DNA of 34,243 nt, taken from assembly GCA_016870515.1 (NCBI GenBank), contig VGBL01000023.1:1-34243 (forward strand), given 5' to 3'. The translations under genes and the position numbers were made by a program. This DNA comes from Actinomycetota bacterium (lineage in GTDB: Bacteria > Actinomycetota > Actinomycetes > S36-B12). Below the pieces are notes generated by a model. The model ran no database searches. It had not been told where the DNA came from and was given only the letters and a program-made list of their open reading frames with translations. Shown here one piece after another: positions 15,549-21,451 of this stretch (positions within the stretch are counted from its first letter, which is position 1; the number at the start of each line of letters is the position of its first letter).

Positions 15549-15624
15549 GCCCCCGTAGCTCAGGGGATAGAGCGCCGGTTTCCGGTACCGAAGGTCGCAG
15601 GTTCGAATCCTGCCGGGGGCGCCA
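15549..15624 (+). tRNA. tRNA-Arg (anticodon CCG)
   Basis: 76 bases with CCA encoded. The acceptor stem GCCCCCG pairs with CGGGGGC (seven perfect pairs); the D arm is GCTC/GAGC and the T arm is GCAGG-TTCGAAT-CCTGC. The anticodon loop TTCCGGT carries CCG at positions 34-36, reading CGG arginine codons. The top pair of the anticodon stem (27-43) is a C-A mismatch; the other four pairs are intact. The discriminator base is G73. A transporter remnant begins two bases after the CCA. Confidence 0.95.
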
Positions 15625-20087: not shown

Positions 20088-20983
20088 GCCGCCACCGCCT
20101 GCCCATCGAGCGCGTAGTCGATCATGGCGTGCATCGTGTGCGTGGAGAGGTAGGTCGTCTCGAGGTGCGCGGTTGCCGCGCGGGCAATGCCCTGCGTGAT
20201 CCACGGCACTGCACTGAGGGCCTCCGGCCATCCGGGCGATGGCACCGCTCGCATCGCCGAACGCGCGCTGAGGCCGGCGAGAACCGGCAGATAGACGTCG
20301 TGGGCGGCGGGAAAACGATCGGCGACACCCCGGCCGAACGGCACCGGATCGAGGAGGTGGACGAGATTGGCCCACCAGCCCACCCGGTCGTAGGGGAAGG
20401 GCCCGGGGGCGAGGGCGCCGGCCACCGCCTCATGGCCGAGCGGGCTGCCGATGGTCACGAGGGCGGCCACCTCGCAGGGAAGGTCATCGAGCACGTCGAG
20501 CATCACCACTGACCCGAGTGAGTGCGCGATGACGACGACGGGGGCTTGCGCTCGCATGAGCTGGCCACGCACTCGGTCGACGACCGCGGCACGCCGTGAC
20601 GAATCGTCGAGGTAGCGCCCGACTTGATCGATGCCGAACAAAGGAGTGCGCAGCACCTGCGGGAGAGGCAGGCGGTCAGGCAGTCGTGCAGGATGCGGGA
20701 GTGCTGCAGGCCACGACGCACCCGGCGGCATTGCCTCGCCAACATCCTGCACCATCTGCGCTACCTGCCGCTGACGCGCCAGGTAGCGCGCACGATGCGC
20801 AGCGTCCGGCGTGCGCGACTCGTCACGTGACCGTACGCGCGGTGCGGCGTACACGTCGCGCGACAGATTTAGGAGGTCGGAGTAGTCGGGCGCTATGACA
20901 TCGGCGCCACCGCGCAGCGCATCGGCCCAGCCCGGCCGGGAGCCGCCCGTCCCGTGGAGATAGACGACCGTTCCCGCAGTCAC
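20084..20983 (-). CDS. Alpha/beta hydrolase, lipase/esterase-like
   Basis: 299 residues from GTG 20983. It opens with TAGTVVYLHGTGGSRPGW, where HGTGG forms the oxyanion region; the nucleophile is S155 in VIAHSLGSVVMLD, and HDVYLP and related C-terminal segments may supply the acid and His. A 50-100 residue insert rich in Arg and Pro forms the lid. There is no signal peptide or membrane segment. The substrate is unknown. The start is favoured because TACCCT lies exactly six bases upstream and the protein begins at the first beta strand; the open frame extends to 21379 but runs antisense through the structured RNA. It is translationally coupled to the DUF2252 gene. Confidence 0.8.
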   Translation of the reverse strand: MTAGTVVYLHGTGGSRPGWADALRGGADVIAPDYSDLLNLSRDVYAAPRVRSRDESRTPDAAHRARYLARQRQVAQMVQDVGEAMPPGASWPAALPHPARLPDRLPLPQVLRTPLFGIDQVGRYLDDSSRRAAVVDRVRGQLMRAQAPVVVIAHSLGSVVMLDVLDDLPCEVAALVTIGSPLGHEAVAGALAPGPFPYDRVGWWANLVHLLDPVPFGRGVADRFPAAHDVYLPVLAGLSARSAMRAVPSPGWPEALSAVPWITQGIARAATAHLETTYLSTHTMHAMIDYALDGQAVAA

Positions 20984-20989
20984 CCCACG

Positions 20990-20995: not shown

Positions 20996-21126
20996 CGTCG
21001 ACCCGGAATCCGCCTTCGACGGACACACCAGTGTGGCGAGGGAGACGGTGGCAATGCAAACGAACCAGTGGGGCCAAAGAAACTGAGAAAATCCGCGACA
21101 CCCCCTTGTGCTGCTTGCTAAGGGCC

Positions 21127-21132
21127 TATACA
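21127..21132 (+). promoter_or_regulatory. Candidate -10 for the orphan structured RNA
   Basis: TATACA, with CTTGTG (21105-21110) 16 bases upstream as a possible -35. Both are imperfect. The position fits a transcript starting near 21138, at the first base-paired segment. Confidence 0.35.
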
Positions 21133-21135
21133 ACT

Positions 21136-21400
21136 GACTTGTCACGAGGGAAACCAAGTGATCGGGTTGAAGGTAAGACTCCCGAACCGCAAGGTGAGGG
21201 TGGAGGCAACTCCAGACCCCGCGTGTCTGCGGGGATCGGTCGGACGGAAAGCCCGGGATCCGAGATCGGACCGGCGGCGCCCCAGCAATGGGTGCGACGG
21301 ACGGAAGGGGAGACACCCCCGAGAAGCCAGCCCTCACGGGCGGTCGGCACCGAGCGGGTCTGAGCGAGGCCCCTCCCACTCATACTGGGAGGGGCCTCGT
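21136..21400 (+). ncRNA. Orphan structured RNA, family not recognised
   Basis: This stretch of about 265 bases has no coding signal but can fold almost end to end. Stems that can be read directly: 21137-21141 with 21155-21159; 21201-21205 with 21210-21214, capped by a GCAA (GNRA) tetraloop; 21217-21222 with 21229-21234; 21237-21241 with 21269-21273; 21277-21282 with 21290-21295; 21307-21310 with 21316-21319; 21330-21333 with 21338-21341; and 21341-21344 with 21349-21352, before the 14-bp terminator. Purine-rich joints such as GGGAAACC and GGTAAGA lie between them. No plus-strand gene follows, so it is not a cis leader. It lacks the signatures of tmRNA, SRP RNA and RNase P RNA, and the riboswitch classes I compared do not fit. 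It could be a raiA-type RNA, a 6S/Ms1-like regulator, or something new. Confidence 0.6.
21365..21399 (+). terminator. Strong intrinsic terminator of the orphan RNA
   Basis: A perfect 14-bp stem (21365-21378 with 21386-21399) with a seven-base loop is followed by TCCTGTTAT. It faces the plus strand. The nearest plus-strand coding gene ends at 19034, so this terminator must serve a transcript arising in the gap itself. Confidence 0.8.
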
Positions 21401-21451
21401 CCTGTTATAGCCCTCGCCGGGCCCGGGGCCCGGAAGGCTCGCCGGGAGTAC

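Follow-up and report, generated by a model that had tools for sequence, protein, structure and literature searches.

A structured RNA gene in an intergenic gap

The window, by which we mean the entire stretch of 34,243 nucleotides analyzed here (contig VGBL01000023.1 of assembly GCA_016870515.1), contains an intergenic gap of 468 bases between two minus-strand genes. Its limits at 20984 and 21451 give the length noted in the original prediction, provided that the GTG at 20983 is taken as the start codon of the left gene. Within this gap we place an RNA gene on the plus strand at 21141 to 21402, about 260 bases in length, comprising two multihelix domains and a terminator hairpin of 15 pairs.

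In the predicted fold, the RNA opens with a 5' hairpin (P1, 21141 to 21162) carrying a GAAA tetraloop; its counterpart in the main family, helix 1, has changed on both sides in six of seven pairs. Domain I (21163 to 21255) is closed by a helix pairing 21163-21168 with 21250-21255 and holds two GCAA hairpins (21186-21195 and 21201-21214), as well as a hairpin at 21217-21234 whose loop takes part in the loop-loop pairing described below. The same plan is backed by covariation in alignment A3 of the main family. Domain II (21256 to 21361) starts directly after domain I and is closed by 21256-21262 pairing with 21355-21361, as placed by the fold and by the covariation count in the window's own group. 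It consists of a GCAA hairpin (21278-21296), the second loop-loop hairpin (21307-21320), and a further hairpin at 21330-21341, and is followed by the terminator. Adenine makes up 41% of the unpaired bases versus 9% of the paired positions.

Upstream of the RNA we observe a putative −35 element, TTGTGC (21106 to 21111), separated by 17 bp from a putative −10 element, TACAAC (21129 to 21134), on the plus strand. Nearly all relatives with upstream sequence carry TTG[C/T] at the same position and spacing, and the −10 element is likewise conserved, reading TAGAAA or TAGAAC in relatives. In the Nanopelagicales groups, this promoter type (TTGYG, 17 to 19 bases, TAGAAA) lies approximately 270 to 360 bases before the RNA end, and it is also readable in Kribbella and Frankiaceae-labelled loci. 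The transcription start near 21141 is inferred. At the other end, the terminator hairpin (21364 to 21400, plus strand) pairs 21364-21378 with 21386-21400, including one G-U pair, and its stem covaries. Its U-tract is weak, and a simple terminator scan made no call there. The functions of the sigma-70-type promoter and of the terminator are inferences from conserved sequence, without a measured transcript.

Several details of the original prediction can be refined at this point. The terminator does run in the plus direction, but with 15 pairs rather than the 14 bp proposed and with only a weak U-tract. Where a single GNRA (GCAA) loop had been noted, the fold has four, namely GAAA at 21150 and GCAA at 21189, 21206, and 21285. 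The absence of a convincing reading frame holds, since none of the open reading frames compared across homologues keeps its length. The promoter, the loop-loop pairing between the domains, and the conserved terminator loop had been missed.

The folding energy of the segment is −137.9 kcal/mol (z = −3.6), and none of 200 shuffled sequences folds as low. However, the minus strand also reaches z = −2.8, so folding energy alone decides neither the strand nor the case. It is conservation and covariation that settle the presence of an RNA gene.

Homologues in Candidatus Nanopelagicales and other Actinomycetes

BLASTN against 99 genomes of the order recovered relatives at 91% identity within the same genus and a full-length match at 70% in another genus (G027), and three further genomes of the same genus matched in part. 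Once oriented, these relatives align at the promoter, the GNRA hairpins, and the terminator. The loop ACUCAU[A/G]CU is common to all of them, above a stem of changing sequence.

Using the loop pattern CCCCTNNNACTCATACTNNNAGGGG as a search handle, we obtained 117 stretches of GTDB genomes. Among the 80 matches listed, all those with a named group are actinobacterial except for one record titled Rubrivirga, the sequence of which is nearly identical to Nanopelagicales ones. The listed matches comprise Candidatus Nanopelagicales, many Kribbella species, bins of Nocardioidaceae, Propionibacteriaceae, and Frankiaceae-labelled organisms, and Phycicoccus, Knoellia, and Pedococcus. In nearly all loci with sufficient upstream sequence, a hairpin-rich stretch with many GNRA or UUCG loops precedes the terminator hairpin. 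The sequences fall into a main Nanopelagicales cluster (50), a Kribbella/Propionibacteriales cluster (30), a Frankiaceae-labelled cluster (11), and the group of the window RNA (8 to 10), and the RNA bodies of different groups cannot be aligned by sequence. A phylum-wide pattern search found no complementary hairpin of this kind outside the class. None of 14 matches in viral contigs represents the RNA family, and phage and plasmid sequences gave no match to the RNA.

Model R2 has matches in 84 of the 166 genomes of the order Candidatus Nanopelagicales (48 of the 80 good-quality ones). The terminator alone contributes about 46 bits of R2, and matches below about 50 bits lean on it. A covariance model of the 3' half of the main group gives 78 bits for L168 and 74 for L136, two RNAs of the window group, versus 46 bits for the terminator alone. 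Because such 3'-half models are dominated by the terminator, we built a body-only model, R3, from which both the terminator and the window group were left out. R3 finds the window RNA at 21213 to 21308 (E = 4.5e-4) and its nearest relative, L002, at E = 1.4e-4. The window RNA is therefore tied to the main group by the 3'-half scores, by the R3 matches, and by the same architecture, including the loop-loop pairing, although the cross-family scores for the window group are only weak to moderate. For the Kribbella, Frankiaceae-labelled, Nocardioidaceae/Propionibacteriaceae, and Intrasporangiaceae RNAs, kinship with the window RNA is an inference drawn from the shared plan, promoter, and terminator loop only, as their bodies are unalignable.

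Many Nanopelagicales genomes carry two diverged copies, and the genome of the window shows one. In two genomes (G006 and G003), one contig encodes a main-type RNA and another a window-type RNA. The two diverged copies of L152 (3790 to 4400) stand in tandem; each has a promoter of its own, and the terminator hairpin is closed by U-A in one copy and by A-U in the other. The genes flanking the RNA differ between the families that carry it. Several loci of the main and window groups lie 2 to 6 kb downstream of a tRNA-Arg(CCG) gene, as is the case in the window, where this gene is found at 15549.

Covariation supports the helices and a loop-loop pairing

Alignment A3 of 40 main-group RNAs, from which the window group was left out, contains 85 consensus pairs, 60 of which have changed on both sides. 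In this alignment 85.2% of cells pair, compared to 74% after shuffling of partners and 34 to 43% when partners are slid, and none of 500 shuffles reaches the observed value in any of five measures. For the window group, the full alignment A4 is poor in the 5' half and no pairs were counted on it. The count for this group thus rests on 10 sequences and the 3' half only, in which 96.3% of cells pair versus 35 to 50% when slid, and 13 of 35 pairs have changed on both sides. Since the shuffles ignore kinship and the pairs were counted on the alignment that had also served to predict the structure, the weight is carried by the sliding control and by the number of compensated pairs. By these counts, the fold is under selection.

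The two domains also appear to contact each other. The loop GUGUCU of domain I (21223 to 21228) is a perfect complement of the loop AGACAC of domain II (21311 to 21316), both on the plus strand, and the pairing covaries in relatives, where we observe AUGUCG/CGACAU, GUGUCG/CGACGC, GUACC/GGUAC, GUGCC/GGCAC, AUGCUG/CAGCAU, and AUGUUG/CAACAU. The commonest pair in the main group, GUGCUG/CUGCAC, contains one U-U mismatch. Across 22 distinct loop pairs, a loop forms on average 5.41 of six pairs with its own partner versus 4.66 with swapped partners, and not one of 20,000 swaps scored as high; the window-group loops in this test were picked by eye from folds. In the Kribbella RNAs, GGUGACG faces CGUCACC by inspection. 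Covariation does not tell a contact inside one RNA molecule from one that joins two.

A nearly invariant terminator loop

The most conserved sequence of the family is the terminator loop, CUCAUAC in the window RNA (21379 to 21385, plus strand) and YUCAURC as family consensus. Most of the homologue set was retrieved with the loop pattern itself; among the body-only matches, which are independent of the terminator, CUCAU[A/G]C is nevertheless present in 30 of 30 examined loci. The closing pair varies among A-U, U-A, G-C, and C-G. Second copies found by R2 in a sister family keep CUCAUAC above a U-A, G-C, or C-G pair, with one UUCAUAC. Because the loop is kept while the closing pair swaps, the conserved unit is the seven-nucleotide loop YUCAURC. 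Rare variants occur only at the positions corresponding to Y32 (as U32) and R37 (as G37) of a tRNA anticodon loop. A nearly fixed terminator loop is unusual, as these loops are normally free to vary.

Comparison with known RNA families

At the gathering threshold, Rfam 15 identifies only a tRNA in the whole window. The segment itself yields only chance matches at E values up to 10, mostly of the miRNA type and to the terminator, and no match was obtained for 20 divergent relatives at the gathering threshold, nor anything relevant for ten relatives at E up to 1. A literature search, with most subscription journals outside its scope, found no description of the RNA. The hallmarks of tmRNA, SRP RNA, and RNase P RNA, previously reported as absent, remain so: ARAGORN finds only a tRNA-Arg in the window and Rfam gives no tmRNA match, no SRP RNA match is seen in the segment at E up to 10, and RNase P RNA (RF00010) is encoded elsewhere in the genome (G000:C7:20602-20998, 266 bits). 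The original prediction of a free-standing, highly structured RNA gene of no recognized family had proposed an Rfam search, homologues in related genomes, and covarying base pairs as checks, and is borne out by all three: no match in the segment at the gathering threshold, BLASTN relatives in Candidatus Nanopelagicales, and both-side changes in the main group and in the 3' half of the window group. We conclude that the RNA gene is real and belongs, within the limits of these tests, to an undescribed family of structured RNAs in Actinomycetes. The novelty lies in the family, which does not belong to any known family tested, while free-standing structured bacterial RNAs as a kind are already known.

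The closest comparisons are with such RNAs. 6S RNA (RF00013) resembles the window RNA in being stand-alone and sometimes present as two paralogues per genome, yet it is a single long hairpin with a central bubble, whereas the window RNA has two multibranch domains supported by covariation. Ms1/scr3559 (RF02566) is likewise a stand-alone, structured actinobacterial RNA of about 300 nt with weakly conserved sequence, but the window RNA is multibranched with a loop-loop pairing. The Ms1 model gave no match in the segment (E up to 10) or in the genome; control genomes were also without a match, and the model is known to reach only relatives of Mycobacterium, which makes this negative weak. CoRP is another stand-alone structured actinobacterial RNA near tRNA genes; it measures 516 nt and has close homologues only in Corynebacterium (PMC11077062). 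The raiA motif RNA, of about 205 nt (PMC12286853), shares a compact ornate fold, and its model has no match in the segment (E up to 10), in 20 relatives (gathering threshold), or in ten relatives (E up to 1). OLE, ROOL, and GOLLD are ornate RNAs with kissing loops, like the window RNA, but are far longer, and their Rfam models match neither the segment nor the 20 relatives.

Possible modes of action

A stand-alone gene of this kind would encode a trans-acting noncoding RNA of approximately 260 nt, transcribed from the sigma-70-type promoter and ended by the final hairpin. Two adjacent multihelix domains, capped by GNRA tetraloops, would be joined by the loop-loop (kissing) interaction; both the secondary structure and this pairing are supported by covariation. 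The resulting rigid body would present the 3' hairpin, whose loop YUCAURC stays near constant while most other positions drift. We infer that this loop is the contact surface for one conserved partner, in complex with which the RNA would work as a structured regulatory RNA. The loop is kept even between diverged paralogues of a single genome, which fits a shared partner. That the RNA acts through its 3' loop is probable, and a rigid body presenting the invariant loop to a single conserved partner is the reading toward which we lean, if only by a little, with the mechanism inferred rather than demonstrated. The conservation of the loop might also serve only termination or stability.

Another possibility, which we keep in play while thinking it unlikely, is a functional analogue of 6S, Ms1, and CoRP: the RNA would be abundant, bind RNA polymerase, and tune how much of the enzyme is available. 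The 6S model has no match in the whole genome, although it detected 6S RNA in five control genomes, and Ms1 and CoRP are examples of actinobacteria replacing 6S by unrelated RNAs (PMC9130861, PMC11077062). A stand-alone gene with its own promoter, high divergence, and often two copies is reminiscent of 6S, which Bacillus subtilis encodes as 6S-1 and 6S-2 (PMC11077062). However, two multibranch domains are found in place of the rod with a central bubble typical of 6S, Ms1, or CoRP. Ms1 loci are marked by an adjoining HAD hydrolase gene (PMC9130861). Kribbella has already been listed with an Ms1 candidate beside such a gene, whereas we recognized no HAD-like frame next to the window RNA or at the Kribbella loci read, flanking frames having been inspected by eye without a family search.

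Single-stranded apical loops are common seeds of small RNAs, and the loop could instead pair with a 5'-GUAUGAG-3' target RNA, an explanation that we regard as doubtful. The rare variants U32 and G37 would both keep G-U pairing to such a target, but two transitions are weak evidence and no target was found. GUAUGAG is absent from the readable 23S parts of the genome, from its RNase P RNA, and from the Escherichia coli rRNA operon; a relative's rRNA was largely masked, and an SSU rRNA search gave no match.

Less plausible still is mimicry of the anticodon arm of a CAU tRNA (Met or Ile2), in which the loop Y32-U33-CAU-R37 would engage a tRNA-binding protein, an anticodon nuclease, or the ribosome. 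The loop is exactly seven nucleotides with any closing pair, and the restriction of its variants to Y32 and R37 is in line with this idea. The elongator tRNA-Met called in these genomes (ACTCATAAT) differs from the RNA loop by one base, reading A-CUCAUAA-U. That base is position 38, which is C in every member seen versus A in those tRNAs, so that the match is six of seven, and the stem has 15 pairs versus five in the tRNA. No tRNA body with acceptor, D, and T arms is seen around the hairpin; among all loci, ARAGORN made two tRNA-Met calls on it (L152 and L204), both lacking a convincing body. Retrieval of most of the set by the loop pattern weakens the argument further. We know of no tRNA-mimic mechanism described for a free-standing bacterial RNA of such kind. 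In its boldest form, and only as a long shot, the family would be a new ornate RNA class, often with two diverged copies per genome, in which kissing-locked domains hold an anticodon-like CAU hairpin that docks on and regulates the translation machinery or a tRNA-recognizing enzyme.

Self-assembly into a homo-oligomer, as in OLE, ROOL, and GOLLD, whose complexes are held together by kissing loops and A-minor contacts (PMC12286853), would place the loop-loop pairing between molecules. The many GNRA loops and the conserved pairing are compatible with it, but the RNA, at about 260 nt, is much shorter, covariation is blind to the difference between intra- and intermolecular contacts, and nothing in this analysis points to oligomers, which leaves this idea improbable. 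Finally, the notion that only the terminator hairpin matters, or that the element acts as DNA, with an unconstrained body, draws on the terminator being by far the most conserved part but is barely tenable, contradicted as it is by the strong covariation of the body helices and by the homologues found with the body-only model.

Few families of bacterial RNAs are transcribed independently and folded intricately, and a question of mechanism has come with each new one (6S, OLE, raiA, and Ms1). Given its presence in cultured genera such as Kribbella, the strong covariation, the predicted tertiary contact, and the nearly invariant seven-nucleotide loop, knockout, pulldown, and structure determination are directly feasible for this RNA.

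Other features near the loci

At the Intrasporangiaceae loci L054, L110, L128, and L131, many short CACCTCGGTGG and GCTTCGGC hairpins occur in near repeat before the same end loop, as if the body had been rebuilt while the 3' end was kept. Terminator matches from one actinobacterial family (L026 to L028) were rejected because they look like ordinary gene terminators read on the other strand; in several genomes, the terminator of a minus-strand gene by a PAC2-like gene has the reverse complement of the family loop, AGCATGAGT. The viral contigs L219, L224, L225, L227, L231, and L232, which are large (about 340 kb) and low in GC, carry the intergenic element CTATTCCTTCCTCAGACTCATACTCATAGGAATGGTATATAAC several times over; it is probably a repeated promoter or operator and has no relation to the RNA.

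In several families, the stretch before the RNA promoter holds clusters of TGTGGAY/TGTGCA, including the DnaA-box-like TTGTCCACA and TGTGCACAA, at 12 to 26 per kb versus 0 to 0.4 in the flanks. They were seen at L022, L031, L037, L042, L069, L206, L210 to L212, and Kribbella loci including L060, and are absent in the window group. Kribbella loci also have a palindrome, GTTATGCACAGGGGGTGTGCATAAC, upstream of the RNA promoter. In one genus (among loci L065, L090, L119, L148, L150, and L167), the RNA gene and a true tRNA-Met(CAU) gene are divergently oriented, some hundreds of bases apart.
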